Below, piece after piece: positions 5,194-38,783 of a stretch of 40,196 nucleotides of DNA. The notes under the pieces are model-generated. The model saw nothing but the letters and a program-made list of their open reading frames with translations, was not told the DNA's origin and did not search any database. The first letter of the stretch is position 1. Each line of letters opens with the position of its first letter. The position numbers were made by a program, and so were the translations under genes. Source of the DNA: a virus. The stretch is taken from positions 1 through 40,196 of the IMG/VR virus record IMGVR_UViG_3300033146_003205; one strand, given 5' to 3'.

Positions 5194-5266
5194 GCTGCGA
5201 TAGTCTAATTGGCTAGGCACTCGCCTTGTAAGCGAGAACATGTCGGTTCAAGTCCGGCTCGTAGCT
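5194..5266 (+). tRNA. tRNA-Thr (anticodon UGU)
   Basis: A full cloverleaf can be drawn: acceptor GCTGCGA/TCGTAGC (one G-U pair), D stem GTCT/AGGC, anticodon stem CTCGC/GCGAG with loop CTTGTAA (anticodon TGT), a five-base variable loop and T stem GTCGG/CCGGC with loop TTCAAGT. The discriminator base is T, as in archaeal threonine tRNAs, and CCA is not encoded in register. It reads ACA, a codon used very heavily in the fibre and tail genes. It starts two bases after the stop of the putative TerS gene. Confidence 0.95.
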
Positions 5267-16206: not shown

Positions 16207-16509
16207 ATGGATGAAACAGGAGACGTTATAAAATTACCAAGCGGGTCAATTATAAAACTAAAAACATTAACTGGCGAAGATTGGTATAAGTGTGTGGCAT
16301 ATTCAACAGAGAAAGCGGCAAAAGAAGGTAAACATTTGATGGATTTAGCGTATTGGGAACGTTATGAAGAATTGATAACTGGTTGGGCACGAGTTAAACT
16401 TAATTCATTAGAATTTAACGATGCAAGAAGTTTGAGATTACAACTTGTTGAAAGAAGTGTTACGAGTCCAAAAGGACCTAACGAATCTAATAAAAATTTA
16501 AAAAACTGA
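16207..16509 (+). CDS. Tail assembly chaperone (G-like)
   Basis: This 100-residue protein has a GGAGAGGAGA binding site. It opens with a short beta hairpin (IKLPSGSIIKLKTLTGEDW) and then becomes helical. Size and place after the tail tube agree with tail assembly chaperones that coat the tape measure. The end contains the slippery heptamer A_AAA_AAC (16500-16506) next to the TGA, which allows a longer fusion product with the next gene. Confidence 0.75.
   Translation: MDETGDVIKLPSGSIIKLKTLTGEDWYKCVAYSTEKAAKEGKHLMDLAYWERYEELITGWARVKLNSLEFNDARSLRLQLVERSVTSPKGPNESNKNLKN
16500..16506 (+). other. Programmed -1 frameshift site A_AAA_AAC
   Basis: The zero-frame codons are TTA AAA AAC TGA. Tandem slippage by -1 on AAAAAAC leads to CTG ATG GCG and on into the frame of the gene at 16509-16730. 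The site is in the right phase and in the same gene pair as in lambda G/GT. Confidence 0.8.
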
Positions 16510-16730
16510 TGGCGGCATTACAAAATCCACAGTATTATGTAGTGCCTAAGAAATATAAAAAAACATTATTGATGATGGGTCTTGAAAATAAAGGACTTGT
16601 GAAATCTGATGTTAAAACATTTCAAGAATGTGATGTTGAAGACGTATTCAAAAGAAAAATCTTAATGAATACTGTATCCCGAATTGAGAAAATAAAACAA
16701 AAACAAAGAATGATGAATAATGGCAGATGA
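16509..16730 (+). CDS. Tail assembly chaperone, T-part (made by -1 frameshift)
   Basis: This 73-residue frame starts with an ATG that overlaps the stop of the upstream gene (TGATG). It has no visible binding site of its own, and the slippery A_AAA_AAC just upstream joins it in frame to the 100-residue chaperone to give a fusion of about 174 residues. It is basic and helical (EDVFKRKILMNTVSRIEKIKQKQ), as a tape-measure binding segment would be. It ends overlapping the tape measure start. Confidence 0.72.
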   Translation: MAALQNPQYYVVPKKYKKTLLMMGLENKGLVKSDVKTFQECDVEDVFKRKILMNTVSRIEKIKQKQRMMNNGR

Positions 16731-18006: not shown

Positions 18007-19908
18007 ATGGAAGACTGGAATTATGAAATTACCTTGAACGGGGAAGATGTAAAAAGCTATGTATTAGATTTTAAAATACCCATTTCAAGAGATTCTAGTG
18101 ATGATGGTGACGGAAATTGGATTAAATTTGTAGGTTCAATAACTGAAGAAAATCTTCTTAAATATGGTTATGAATTATTAATTAAAAGAGGTATTGAATC
18201 TTCTGATGAACAATTCATATTTAAAGGAGATGTTACAAATATAAAAATTGATGAAGGTACTATAACTTGTAATGTTAGACCTCCTCCTTGGAAATTACAA
18301 AATCAAACTATAACAGAAGTTTTTGGTCCTAGTTCTATTGAAGCAGGAGTTATCACAGAAATGTGGAAATCTGTCGCAGCAGGAGAAAATGAAACTATTA
18401 ATGTTTCCGCTACTGCAAATCCTGATTTACCTTTATTAACATATTTCTTATGTGAAGGGGAAACAAGATGGAACAGAGCACAAAAACTTAGGAAACTTAT
18501 CAAATATCAATCTTTTTACAAACCTTCAACAGATACATATTATTTAGAACCTGAAGGAAACACAGCATATCCATTAACATTAGAAGTTGGAAAAGCTATA
18601 ATGAATGTTCCAAAATGGGTTTTTGATGAAGAATCTGTTATCAATGATGTCAAAATAAATGGTGCTGTAGCAGACGCACGTTATGAAGAAATATTTAACG
18701 GAAACGGTGCAGAAGATACTTTCACATTATCCTGGATTCCTAAAGATACGGAAGTTTATGTTGGTTCAAAAACAACTGCAAATTTACAAGTTTTTGGTGT
18801 TGTAGATTCTACAGACACATATAATTATTATGTTGATAATGAAGAAAAAGAGGTTATTTTCTTATCTGGTTCGATACCTGGTGCAGGCACTGATAATGTT
18901 ATAATAAACTATTCTTATAATCAACCTAGACCTGTTAGAATCAAAGATAATACGAGCATTGGTGCATTTGGTCTAAGACAAACAGAAGTCTCGTTCAGCG
19001 AAACTATAAGCGTTGCAGACGCAACAATACAAGCACAAACTATTGTTGATGTTTCAGCATATCCTGCAAAATCCACAACTATCCAAACAATATTAATACA
19101 AGAAATATTCCCTGGTTATAAAGTTTCAATCGTTGATTCTATTAATAATATTAATGGGGATTTTACTGTTAATAAAGTTATATACCAATACACAGCAGGT
19201 TATGACGTTTTAGAAATTGGGGACCGAGTTTACAAACAATCAGACCTTGTTTATGATATTATTGAAAATATTTACGAACTTAATAAGAAAGGACAAAATC
19301 AAAATCAACAATTAGTTACTGAAATAAATAATAATAAAGTTGATGTTTACACACACATTACCAACGAATTATATACTGCAGAACCTGAAGATGACGTTTT
19401 ATATTGGGATTCTGAAGAACAAGGAGAGTGGGATAATTTTGAGTGGGGCGATGATGATGATGAAGATAGAACTTTAATTAAAAGGTTATATTCAAACAAT
19501 ACATTTTATGATGATTTTTCCTCAACACAATATAGCGATACTGTTAATACAACCGCAACCATAGATACAACTGATAAACAAGTTGAATTCACATCAGGAC
19601 AAATATATCGTTCTGACCAAGTTGTTGTCGGGGGAGGAAGTGTTGAAAGTATCGTGGCTACGTGGACTGTTACAGGAACTGTGAAAGTTGAATTCAGTAA
19701 TAATGATGGAGAATCTTGGCTTGAAGCTACAAACAGCACGAGTTTATCTCTTCCTGAAGCTTCTAATGTAGGGGATGTTTTCCCGATGGTTTTCCCAATC
19801 ACTTTGGGCGGAGCTACAGAAGACGCAATAGTAAAATATAGAGTTACAGAAACAGGAAGTTCCACAGCAGAACTTTCACAAATAAAATTTAAATATACTT
19901 TTAGGTGA
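18007..19908 (+). CDS. Large tail tip/hub protein (Tal-like)
   Basis: This 633-residue protein starts three bases after the previous stop. Its first 390 residues contain beta-rich hub-like blocks and a conserved-looking segment FLCEGETRWNRAQKLRKL near 155, followed by strands and NYSYNQPRPVRIKD. After an acidic stretch (EWDNFEWGDDDDEDR) around residue 475 comes a jelly-roll-like C-terminus that ends KFKYTFR. It likely forms the tip and anchors receptor-binding proteins. Family cannot be stated precisely. Confidence 0.62.
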   Translation: MEDWNYEITLNGEDVKSYVLDFKIPISRDSSDDGDGNWIKFVGSITEENLLKYGYELLIKRGIESSDEQFIFKGDVTNIKIDEGTITCNVRPPPWKLQNQTITEVFGPSSIEAGVITEMWKSVAAGENETINVSATANPDLPLLTYFLCEGETRWNRAQKLRKLIKYQSFYKPSTDTYYLEPEGNTAYPLTLEVGKAIMNVPKWVFDEESVINDVKINGAVADARYEEIFNGNGAEDTFTLSWIPKDTEVYVGSKTTANLQVFGVVDSTDTYNYYVDNEEKEVIFLSGSIPGAGTDNVIINYSYNQPRPVRIKDNTSIGAFGLRQTEVSFSETISVADATIQAQTIVDVSAYPAKSTTIQTILIQEIFPGYKVSIVDSINNINGDFTVNKVIYQYTAGYDVLEIGDRVYKQSDLVYDIIENIYELNKKGQNQNQQLVTEINNNKVDVYTHITNELYTAEPEDDVLYWDSEEQGEWDNFEWGDDDDEDRTLIKRLYSNNTFYDDFSSTQYSDTVNTTATIDTTDKQVEFTSGQIYRSDQVVVGGGSVESIVATWTVTGTVKVEFSNNDGESWLEATNSTSLSLPEASNVGDVFPMVFPITLGGATEDAIVKYRVTETGSSTAELSQIKFKYTFR

Positions 19909-19913
19909 TAATC

Positions 19914-22253
19914 ATGGCAACTTATGACGTACCCGATAAATCAACAGGAGAAGGATTGACTGCAGCAGAATTTAATCAAGTTAAAGATGTATTAAAAGAC
20001 GCTTCACGTATAATGACCCCTGCAGAGATTGATTTTGCAACAACAAGTAATCCCTCTTATGCAGAGAAAAGAGTGTTTTATGATAATACAAAGAAAGCAT
20101 TATCATATTATAATGAAGAATCAGATATTACTGTTAATATGGGGCAAGAAGTATTATTTAGAATTTCTAATGCTACAGGTTCAACAATTACTAATGGTTC
20201 TGTTGTTACAAACGATTCCACAGGAATAACTCTTGCAGATTGTAGATATAAAGATAAATCTAATTTAATAGCTGTCGCTACACACGATATTGAAACTGGC
20301 ACAACAGGTTATACCACAAGACTTGGTGAAGTTGGCGGTATGGATACTTCTGCATATAGTCCAGGTCAAATATTATATCTTGGCGAAGCGGGCACTTATT
20401 CAACTACACGACCCACAAATGGAGGTTTCTCTGTTATTGTTGGTGTTGTAAAAACTGTAAGTTCAACAGAAGGTATAATTCAAGTTAATCCTATAACTAG
20501 CGATACAGCTGTTGAACTTACCGATACTAACGGATTTCCTGCAGACCAAAGAACAGGAACCACATTATCTTTCGTTGATGGTACAAGAACATTCACTATA
20601 ACGCCTACAGGTGCCGAGTTCCATTATTACGAATTAGGTAATAAATACGAAGTTACTGGTGCGGATAGTGTTGTTATCGCAGATACTGAAGGACTTCACG
20701 TTATTTATTATGATGAGGATACATTAACATCTTTAGCTAACCCTACAGTTTCACAGCAAGACGTTTTAATACGTACTAAAGCTCTTGTGGGTTACGTATA
20801 TTGGAACGCTACAGCTAACACTTCAAATTATTTTGCTGATGAAAGACATGGCATTTCTATGTCTCCTAACACTCATAGTTATTTACATTTCACAAGAGGT
20901 GCACAATATCTTAATGGGTTAGGACTTGGAGATTTTGTAATTAGTGGTGGGGGTGATAATGAAGATGCACAATTTTCTATTGCTTCAGGAACTGTTGCAG
21001 ATGAAGATATCGCCACAACTTATTCCACTATAACAAAAACAACAGGATTACCTATTTATTATTTAGAAGGTTCTGGAGCTAATTTAAGAAAAACCACTCA
21101 ACCAGGATTTTCAATGCCTACAAGTAGTGGTACAAACACCACAAGACTTGTTTATAACGAATGGTCAGGAACTGTTTGGCAATTAACAGAAGTATCACAT
21201 AATGATTTTGTTTTATGTCATGTTTTCGCTGTGAATGGATATACTGGTAAAGACCAGCAAATATCTGTAATAGGTCAAAAGGAATACGGAACTCGAGCAC
21301 AGGCAAGAGCAGGGGCTTCTGAAGAAATCTCTAACATCATTTTAGCGTTTCCTTTTGAAGAAATAGTTCCTATAGGTACTGTTATTTTCCAAACAAATCT
21401 TGGATATGGCAATGATATTAATGCTAAAGTAGTGCGAGACGGAGAAGGAAATGATTATGTTGATTGGAGAACTACAGAACTTGCACAAGGCACTGCTGCA
21501 ACAAGTCATAATAATCTTACTAATTTAGAATTAGCAAACACAACAATAACATGGGGTCACGTAGATGACCAAGTTCAATCATTTTATGGTGTGAAGACTT
21601 TTAATAGTTTTCCCGTAACTCCATCAAGTGCTCCAACAAGCGATTATGAAGTTGCTAATAAGAAGTATGTTGATGATAATGGGGGTTCAAGTAGTCCTTT
21701 AACAACTAAAGGAGATGTTTATACTTATAGCACTACAGATGCAAGACTTGGTGTTGGTACTAATGATTATGTATTAACAGCAGACAGTACTGAAGCTACA
21801 GGACTTAAATGGGCGCCTGCGAGTGGTGGCTCAGGTGGCGGAGCTCCTCCTTTCATGTTTGAAATTGAAGGTGCACAATCAGCAGGATTAAAAAGAACTT
21901 GGATTGTTCCAGATGCTTATGCTGGTATGGATGTATCAGAATTAAGAGTTATGGTAACTGGTTTAAATACGGGTTCAAGTATGAAATTTGATATTAGACT
22001 TAATGGTACTGCAACTACTGATAGTATAATGACTGGAGATGTAGATATGGAATTACTTACAACTCAAACAGCTACAAATGGCGTATATCAAATTGGTTGT
22101 AATACTTCTGGTTCAACAGTTGGTACAGCAGGAACTACTTTAGACTCTGCAAGAACAACTTTAGCAGCAGACGATGTATTAAGATTTTATACAACTCAAG
22201 TAGGTAGTACAGAAACAGGTGCAAACCTAAGTGTAATAATTACAATAGAATAA
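19914..22253 (+). CDS. Tail fibre protein
   Basis: The ATG at 19914 follows AGGTGATAATC, the best start. The 779-residue protein has the composition of a fibre: Thr, Gly, Ser, Ala and Asn-rich with few charges. It opens with a short attachment part (YDVPDKSTGEGLTAAEFNQVK), continues as repeats of beta strands, and near the end has SPLTTKGDVYTYSTTDARLGVGT, a phrase common in phage fibres. The C-terminal 150 residues after the PPFMFEIEGAQSAG motif form a beta domain, probably for receptor contact. Confidence 0.75.
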   Translation: MATYDVPDKSTGEGLTAAEFNQVKDVLKDASRIMTPAEIDFATTSNPSYAEKRVFYDNTKKALSYYNEESDITVNMGQEVLFRISNATGSTITNGSVVTNDSTGITLADCRYKDKSNLIAVATHDIETGTTGYTTRLGEVGGMDTSAYSPGQILYLGEAGTYSTTRPTNGGFSVIVGVVKTVSSTEGIIQVNPITSDTAVELTDTNGFPADQRTGTTLSFVDGTRTFTITPTGAEFHYYELGNKYEVTGADSVVIADTEGLHVIYYDEDTLTSLANPTVSQQDVLIRTKALVGYVYWNATANTSNYFADERHGISMSPNTHSYLHFTRGAQYLNGLGLGDFVISGGGDNEDAQFSIASGTVADEDIATTYSTITKTTGLPIYYLEGSGANLRKTTQPGFSMPTSSGTNTTRLVYNEWSGTVWQLTEVSHNDFVLCHVFAVNGYTGKDQQISVIGQKEYGTRAQARAGASEEISNIILAFPFEEIVPIGTVIFQTNLGYGNDINAKVVRDGEGNDYVDWRTTELAQGTAATSHNNLTNLELANTTITWGHVDDQVQSFYGVKTFNSFPVTPSSAPTSDYEVANKKYVDDNGGSSSPLTTKGDVYTYSTTDARLGVGTNDYVLTADSTEATGLKWAPASGGSGGGAPPFMFEIEGAQSAGLKRTWIVPDAYAGMDVSELRVMVTGLNTGSSMKFDIRLNGTATTDSIMTGDVDMELLTTQTATNGVYQIGCNTSGSTVGTAGTTLDSARTTLAADDVLRFYTTQVGSTETGANLSVIITIE

Positions 22254-35345: not shown

Positions 35346-35418
35346 TGGACTGACCGAGATTTGAACTCGGATATCCGCATTGCAAATGCGAGAGTCTACC
35401 AGATTGACCTATCAGCCC
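35346..35418 (-). tRNA. tRNA-Ala (anticodon UGC)
   Basis: The cloverleaf has acceptor GGGCTGA/TCAGTCC with the G3-U70 pair that defines alanine tRNA, D stem GGTC/GACT (one G-U), anticodon stem TCGCA/TGCGG with loop TTTGCAA (anticodon TGC), variable ATAT and T stem CCGAG/CTCGG. Discriminator is A; CCA is not encoded. It reads GCA, which is abundant in the virion genes. Confidence 0.95.
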
Positions 35419-37655: not shown

Positions 37656-38783
37656 TTAATAATTCACAGCTTCGTCTCTTGTAATAAAGAAATGGATTCC
37701 TTTTTCACATTCTAAATAAGATTTATCGTTCCAATCTTCAACAATAACGGTTTCACCAATTTTATATTTAAATTTTGAATCGTGTGTTGAAACTGCTGTG
37801 ATATATTTAGTTTTTCCATCTACGGATTTAATTGAAATAACTTTTGCAGATTTACATCTACATTTTCTTGAAATCATACCACCGACAGCTGTTTTTACAT
37901 TAATTTTTAATTCAACGATTTTGTCTTCTCCGCATTTTTTCCATCCGATAATGTTCCCTTTTTTGGGCAAAATTCTATAATTAAATTTAGCGTTAATAAA
38001 ATTAGCGTTGTTAAAATTAGCGTTGTTAAAATAAGCGTTGTTAAAATTAGCGTTACTAAAATCAGCGTTACTAAAATCAGCGTTATTAAAATTAGCATCT
38101 CTAAAATAAGCGTTACTAAAATTAGCGTTACTAAAATAAGCGTTACTAAAATCAGCGTTACTAAAATCAGCGTTACTAAAATCAGCGTTACTAAAATCAG
38201 CGTTGTTAAAATCAGCTTTATAAAAATAAGCGTTACTAAAATCAGCTTTATAAAAATCAGCGTTGTTAAAATCAGCGTTATTAAAATTAGCGTTATTAAA
38301 ATCAGCTTTATTAAAATCAGCTTTATAAAAATTAGCATTGAGAAATAATTTTAATTCTTCAATAAAACTATCTTCGTCAAGTCCTGCTATTGCTGTTCCA
38401 AGTCCTGTGATTATAACATCTTGTTTTCTTGATGCAAAATAAACACCTAATAAAGCTCTTTTAATAATTTCTTTTTTGGTTTTAATATTTGTATCACAAC
38501 TTATTAAGAAAAATAAATCTTTAGTAAATTTAAATTCTCTTGCGTTTTCGCATTGTTCAGGATATTTATTTTTAATAGCCAAATCAAGACCGCCCGCCAT
38601 ATTAAAATAAGGATTTGAAGCCGTACAAATTAAAGTATTTTTATAATTTTCTTTAGTTTTAAATACATCATTAAATTTTGAAACAATTAGTTCACAATGT
38701 GTATTATTTACTGTTGCTTCAAATAACTTTTTAACTTTGTCCTTTAATTTTTTATTTTTATCACAAAATATTATTTTATTCAT
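37656..38783 (-). CDS. Macro-domain / pentapeptide-repeat / DUF5758-like fusion
   Basis: This 375-residue protein has three parts. Residues 1-148 resemble a macro domain (ADP-ribose binding): NTLICTASNPYFNMAGGLDLAI corresponds to the N-A-x-N...GG-x-D-x-A-I loop, and ITGLGTAIAGLDEDSF to the G-x-G loop. Residues 149-268 are 24 exact-period pentapeptides (type NADFS, KADFN), which form a right-handed square helix. Residues 269-375 match the pattern of the DUF5758-type end domain (CRCKSAKVISI ... GETVIVEDW ... ECEKGIHFFIT). Tail domains of this kind follow pentapeptides in other viruses. The macro part is inferred by motif. Confidence 0.72.
   Translation of the reverse strand: MNKIIFCDKNKKLKDKVKKLFEATVNNTHCELIVSKFNDVFKTKENYKNTLICTASNPYFNMAGGLDLAIKNKYPEQCENAREFKFTKDLFFLISCDTNIKTKKEIIKRALLGVYFASRKQDVIITGLGTAIAGLDEDSFIEELKLFLNANFYKADFNKADFNNANFNNADFNNADFYKADFSNAYFYKADFNNADFSNADFSNADFSNADFSNAYFSNANFSNAYFRDANFNNADFSNADFSNANFNNAYFNNANFNNANFINAKFNYRILPKKGNIIGWKKCGEDKIVELKINVKTAVGGMISRKCRCKSAKVISIKSVDGKTKYITAVSTHDSKFKYKIGETVIVEDWNDKSYLECEKGIHFFITRDEAVNY
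37980..38339 (-). repeat. 15-bp tandem repeats encoding pentapeptides
   Basis: The DNA is a near-perfect array of 24 units of 15 bases with consensus AAATTAGCGTTGTTA on the plus strand. Such arrays expand and contract easily by slippage; other frames through it produce spurious repetitive ORFs. Confidence 0.9.

Follow-up and report, generated by a model that had tools for sequence, protein, structure and literature searches.

Xu, Hendrix and Duda, cited in PMC5009743 and PMC7230728, are said to have described, in 2004, a -1 translational frameshift that is conserved in the tail genes of dsDNA phages. In phage lambda, where this type of frameshift relates genes G and T, the slip heptamer is G_GGA_AAG. 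Among viruses of archaea, -1 sites have been predicted in the haloarchaeal tailed viruses HVTV-1, HCTV-1, HCTV-2, HCTV-5 and Hardycor1 (PMC5009743, PMC8211752, PMC7911831), with A_AAA_AAC as the predicted site in HCTV-2 (PMC5009743) and G GGA AAT as the predicted heptamer in Hardycor1 (PMC7911831), and a +1 shift at TTT-CGC has been discussed for the HF1 group (PMC7230728). A 2021 review terms the virus cases "likely" or "apparent" and gives one archaeal -1 frameshift reported in cells, that of fucA1 of Saccharolobus solfataricus, which occurs at A_AAA_AAT with a frequency of about 10% in vitro (PMC8211752). A predicted -1 shift at A_AAA_AAC in the tail genes of tailed viruses is, going by the accounts in PMC5009743 and PMC7911831, a kind of site already known.

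The locus described here belongs to a viral sequence record 40,196 bases long, the whole of which was analyzed (hereinafter the window); it has no known end repeats, and is therefore perhaps a fragment. Its genes follow the order terminase, portal, protease, major head protein and tail genes, and its G+C content is 31%. The two small overlapping genes of interest, ORF1 and ORF2 (Table 1), are situated between a tail tube gene recognized by sequence matches and a probable tape measure gene assigned from position only. The product of the former matches PHROG 290 ('minor tail protein', category tail) with E 4e-16, is 28% identical over 58% to a protein that Rossellomorea phage phiT1 has under the name 'major tail protein', and is 53% identical to the tail protein of the nearest relative found in this study (L072); the best PHROG match of the latter is a family of unknown function (E 0.017). 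Elsewhere in the window, positions 37656-38783 (- strand) encode a pentapeptide-repeat protein with a DUF5758 domain.

Table 1. Features of the putative frameshift locus in the window.
Feature	Coordinates	Strand	Basis or remark
Major tail (tube) protein gene, 332 aa	15193..16191	+	PHROG 290, phage phiT1 and L072 similarity
ORF1, putative tail assembly chaperone (G-like), 100 aa	16207..16509	+	Position, relatives, weak family and fold matches
ORF2 (T-like), -1 reading frame	16494..16730	+	ATG at 16509 overlapping the ORF1 stop
Overlapping in-phase heptamer T_TTA_AAA	16497..16503	+	Possible second slip site
Slippery heptamer A_AAA_AAC, zero-frame phase	16500..16506	+	Also at the equivalent place in L072/L082
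Candidate frameshift-stimulating hairpin, 9-bp outer stem	16514..16546	+	7 nt past the heptamer
Probable tape measure gene, 273 aa	16720..17541	+	Position only

ORF1 ends in AAT TTA AAA AAC TGA, its protein in NLKN, and the codons TTA (16498-16500), AAA (16501-16503) and AAC (16504-16506) place A_AAA_AAC in the zero-frame phase directly before the TGA (16507-16509), with A_AAT_TTA just 5' of the two overlapping heptamers. The -1 frame is open from the base following a TAA (16491-16493) up to a stop at 16728-16730, its translation reading KK LMAALQNPQ from the slip site, and the ATG of ORF2 shares bases with the stop of ORF1 in the sequence TGATG. The two claims of the earlier note on this DNA regarding the site itself, namely that the heptamer is correctly phased and that it leads into the next ORF, are thereby borne out. 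However, the heptamer in the window taken alone is weak evidence, because AAAAAAC is no commoner there than chance would have it (30 occurrences on both strands, 36 expected) and 18 of 69 non-overlapping window ORFs of at least 60 aa contain an in-phase X_XXY_YYZ within their last 25 codons. Only ORF1 among these 69 combines a terminal heptamer with a -1 extension of at least 35 codons.

Based on its arrangement and on the comparisons given below, we consider this locus very probably to be a programmed -1 frameshift of the lambda G/GT type, with ORF1 as the gene of a tail assembly chaperone that ORF2 would extend at the C terminus. The majority of ribosomes would terminate at the TGA to yield the 100-aa chaperone, while a minority, paused by the downstream hairpin, would slip back by one base on A_AAA_AAC with the Lys and Asn tRNAs and continue in the -1 frame, giving a predicted fusion product of 174 aa (100 + 74). 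By analogy to gpG and gpGT of lambda, the fusion would serve as a bridge between the tape measure protein and the protein of the tail tube. The window differs from lambda in having A_AAA_AAC in place of G_GGA_AAG and an ORF2 start codon that overlaps the stop of ORF1, and family searches recovered no similarity to lambda G or T. In the haloarchaeal tailed viruses, too, a -1 shift has been predicted for this pair of genes, in HCTV-2 at the identical heptamer; their hosts are known to be archaea, whereas that of the AT-rich window has to be deduced. The fucA1 case is comparable in its A-rich heptamer, which an archaeal ribosome is reported to use, but concerns the gene of a cellular enzyme, in which the extension is long and which has no role in tails.

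In similarity searches, weak matches to chaperone families came from relatives of the pair. Comparisons of the window ORF1 and ORF2 with Pfam and PHROG gave chance-level matches only (best E 0.04). The ORF1s of two of the six relatives tried (L143 and L145) match the Pfam family Phage_TAC_5, an XkdN-like tail assembly chaperone, with E 3e-4 and 6e-4, albeit under the gathering score, and the -1 frame of L107, one of two relatives tried, matches PHROG 9001 'tail assembly chaperone' with E 0.003. An AlphaFold model of ORF1 built from 25 of the 34 ORF1s assembled below has a pLDDT of 78.6. Its viral Foldseek search gave no match at E 0.001, the best match under any name being at E 0.01; eight of the 50 matches listed are named tail assembly chaperone, all of them weak, and three baseplate hub, with an uncharacterized protein of Methanobacterium virus Drs3 ranking second. 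Against the PDB the fold found nothing significant (best E 2.7).

Relatives of this virus proved to be distant. Viral contigs scanned with the window's ORF1, tail protein and TerL yielded no confirmed close relative; tblastn searches of phage records gave, for ORF1, two chance-level matches and no relative among 50,697 records, and for the capsid protein no match. An alignment of the portal recovered no relative from genome contigs, and one of the tail protein nothing beyond the L072 contig again. The relatives used here were reached via a downstream tail gene (19905-22253), the portal and the capsid protein, the last of which has 285 relatives in IMG/VR, the best 80 of which were analyzed. 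With a profile of the major tail protein, its gene was located in the window and in 57 further loci; of 59 tail-protein matches, seven loci repeating other contigs were dropped and nine ended within or soon after the gene. ORF1 was obtained from 43 entries, 36 of them distinct, and removal of two truncated ones (L097 and L166) left 34 loci with distinct ORF1s, i.e. the window and 33 relatives, L088 having been swapped for a longer piece of its contig (L176). In one locus (L137) inspection by eye revealed a gene resembling an HNH endonuclease between the tail protein gene and the frameshift pair, and for the ORF1 count it was replaced by the next gene.

An in-phase heptamer followed by an open -1 ORF is present in 27 of these 34 loci, that is, in the window and 26 of the 33 relatives, with -1 extensions of 38-78 codons. 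Counting the last of overlapping heptamers, the sites are A_AAA_AAA in ten loci, A_AAA_AAC in nine, A_AAA_AAG in six, and A_AAA_AAT and G_GGA_AAG in one each. When only ORF1s of less than 50% identity to each other were kept, 21 of 27 loci displayed the arrangement. In a control on 38 loci the same test was passed by 26 of 33 chaperone ORFs as against 7 of 857 other ORFs (Fisher p 8e-39 on nearly the same counts), and among ORFs whose -1 frame continues for at least 35 codons at the stop by 26 of 28 as against 7 of 291. The phase of the heptamer is less decisive: chaperone ORFs have it in phase in 26 cases and in the two wrong phases in 11 and 14, some of the latter stemming from A runs longer than seven, the other ORFs in 7, 17 and 12 cases, and the pooled 890 ORFs in 33 as compared to 28 and 26, which hardly differ. 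The in-phase enrichment in chaperone ORFs is thus about twofold and not absolute. The earlier note had taken absence of the heptamer from relatives as refuting its claim, a check that did not refute it, and it is their conservation of the heptamer that decides in favor of a programmed frameshift, the window heptamer alone being weak; together with the site, its phase and its position between the major tail protein gene and the probable tape measure gene, this conservation supports the lambda G/GT arrangement which that note had put forward.

The remaining seven loci depart from the arrangement in different ways. In four of them (L098, L100, L102 and L106) one longer gene replaces the chaperone pair and no ORF2 was recognized; these may have lost the frameshift or may never have had it. 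In another two (L130 and L111) ORF2 lies in the +1 frame, and the last (L134) has a -1 ORF2 with no canonical heptamer. By eye, L130 and L111 have TTT_CAA at the homologous place, a candidate +1 slip site that recalls the TTT-CGC discussed for the HF1 group (PMC7230728).

The nearest relative, a single contig represented by L072 and L082, allows a direct comparison of the slip region. Its ORF1 is 34% identical to that of the window (tblastn E 4e-13), and its -1 frame is 35% identical to ORF2 from the slip site on, at a tblastn E of 0.05 if taken alone. It reads A_AAA_AAC_TAA and has ATT where ORF2 of the window has ATG. A hairpin begins 7 nt past the heptamer in this contig as well, with an outer stem of 8 bp compared to 9 bp in the window (z -3.45 in L082; z -2.88 and -11.9 kcal/mol in the window). 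Eight pairs are shared, five of them invariant, one changed on one side and two on both; in this comparison of only two sequences the covariation is not exceptional in a shuffle control (132 of 500), and sliding the partner by one to three columns reduces the pairing from 100% to 25-44%.

Candidate stimulators were also enriched over the set. Tested against 300 shuffles, the stem score of the window has p 0.003, and across the 27 loci the stems that start 4-10 nt past the heptamer outscore shuffled sequences with a combined p of 1.8e-5, as against p 0.18-0.92 at six other offsets; individually, the stem is significant (p<0.05) in 7 of the 27 loci and not in the other 20. When folding energy was followed over 45 offsets, the mean was lowest at +6 nt (z -1.09, SEM 0.29), with -0.93 at +48 nt. 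Upstream of the heptamer, at 5-20 nt, offset 0 shows an enrichment of Shine-Dalgarno-like pairing with the 16S tail (KS p 0.001 over 27 loci) that none of six other offsets shows, with 10 of the 27 loci below 0.1. Both the stem and the pairing test treat loci as independent. A Shine-Dalgarno-like stimulator of this kind was sought upstream of the slip site in the window and is absent.

Several alternatives to ribosomal slippage deserve consideration. That ORF1 and ORF2 are two unrelated small genes which overlap by chance, with no functional fusion, might be entertained in view of the 18 window ORFs with in-phase heptamers near their ends, but we regard it as having hardly any probability given the 27 of 34 loci with the arrangement against 7 of 857 other ORFs. 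Transcriptional slippage, in which the RNA polymerase slips on the A run such that some mRNAs carry the frame change, would fit the nature of the site and the longer runs of certain relatives, for example nine A in the L088 contig. However, the run in the window has just six A, the G_GGA_AAG of L127 offers no homopolymer on which to slip, and the codon phase along with stems 4-10 nt downstream is better suited to the ribosome, making this a very improbable explanation.

Translational coupling, whereby ribosomes would reinitiate at TGATG after the TGA to produce a separate ORF2 protein of 73 aa, the heptamer being an accident of AT-rich DNA, is the rival with the most in its favor, though we still deem it improbable. 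The stop and start codons overlap, heptamers of this type are common in the window, and in the window by itself reinitiation could account for ORF2. That ORF2 has no ribosome-binding site of its own, as had been claimed, holds insofar as it displays no Shine-Dalgarno-like sequence, its best 16S-tail pairing being -0.4 kcal/mol, while 40 of the 68 window ORFs listed reach -5 kcal/mol or better (scored at any start in the first 30 codons of each ORF). This lack is not special here, because the next gene, starting at 16720, attains only -1.8 kcal/mol; that next gene overlaps ORF2, and with hardly any Shine-Dalgarno sequence it indicates that coupling may operate in the operon. Furthermore, one of the usual start codons (ATG, GTG or TTG) stands no more than ten codons from the slip site in 12 of the 27 loci, the window included. 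Against reinitiation, the nearest relative shows ATT at the position of the ATG while retaining both heptamer and hairpin, though members of this group might be able to initiate at ATT, and in 21 of the 27 loci the first 17 codons past the slip site include no ATG. The -1 ORFs of L128, L092 and L156 are devoid of any ATG, and those of L092 and L156 also of GTG and TTG, leaving these two with no usual start codon at all. Slippage on the heptamer is the reading that we retain as the most probable.

A separate observation concerns the gene preceding the terminase large subunit in L138 and L139, contigs of L061 and L063, which are close relatives from one metagenome. This gene ends in an in-phase A_AAA_AAA (1585-1591 in L138, 804-810 in L139), and the -1 frame encoding the terminase has its first ATG, GTG or TTG not before codon 20 (L138) or 49 (L139) past the heptamer. 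Two readings offer themselves, a second -1 frameshift that fuses this gene to the terminase gene, and initiation of the terminase at a shared ATT that follows GAGGGA. The ATT of L072 was accordingly weakened as a means of deciding, by itself, between frameshifting and reinitiation, as the terminase frames of L061 and L063 may start with ATT.

Regarding the host, four public genomes proved to contain a capsid relative, namely three archaeal MAGs, among them a Woesearchaeota and a Nanoarchaeota belonging to one phylum, and one bacterial MAG of WOR-3. At 3.9 Mb the WOR-3 MAG is larger than each of the 20 others listed from the 147 in its phylum, and for this reason it may be a mixed bin. Searches by phylum for the capsid protein gave 3/371 for the phylum of the Woesearchaeota and Nanoarchaeota MAGs, 1/147 for that of the WOR-3 MAG and 1/34 for that of the third archaeal MAG, adding one weak match to the four known genomes. 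Among named sequences the portal is closest to those of haloarchaeal viruses (21-24% identity), followed at a short distance by Thermus phages; TerL is closest to bacterial phages, and a virus that has been assigned to Methanomicrobiales matches it at 34%. The window encodes a tRNA-Thr (5194-5266, + strand) and a tRNA-Ala (35346-35418, - strand), by eye neither with an encoded CCA end. As a host marker the tRNA-Thr was uninformative (1/147 in both groups tried at E <= 0.01). Matches to the tRNA-Ala at E <= 0.1, many of which cover just a short stretch, number 61/147 in the phylum of the Nanoarchaeota MAG, 9/34 in that of the third archaeal MAG and 6/147 in that of the WOR-3 MAG, and favor the first of these (61/147 vs 6/147).

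Taken from these data, an archaeal host, as the earlier note had assumed, is likely, since three of the four genomes with a capsid relative are archaeal MAGs, although viral contigs in MAGs can be mis-binned and the assignment of the host is indirect; a host within the DPANN archaea is somewhat favored. In published work, one groundwater virus population has been linked to a Nanoarchaeota (PMC10980836), the main text of PMC8651126 does not contain the term DPANN, and among the papers listed in searches on DPANN viruses and archaeal virus frameshifting, with few subscription papers included, none describes the group going by titles and abstract openings.

The presentation of frameshifting in archaea as a little-studied subject, for which this site would be a good natural test, has to be tempered by the shifts already predicted in haloarchaeal viruses, going by the account in PMC5009743. 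We give an even chance to the broader proposition that a large group of tailed viruses, with 285 capsid relatives in IMG/VR, has DPANN archaea as its hosts and generally depends on -1 frameshifting at A_AAA_AAN, stimulated either by a hairpin about 7 nt downstream or by a Shine-Dalgarno-like sequence upstream. If this is true, recoding of the bacterial type, with its full kit of signals, would operate on the ribosomes of archaea that are reduced and symbiotic, and archaeal frameshifting could be tested on dozens of natural variants. The 27 sites, with their two candidate classes of stimulators and the natural exceptions formed by single genes and +1 frames, constitute a ready test set with which to probe the mechanism of slippage on archaeal ribosomes and its requirements for tRNAs and signals.
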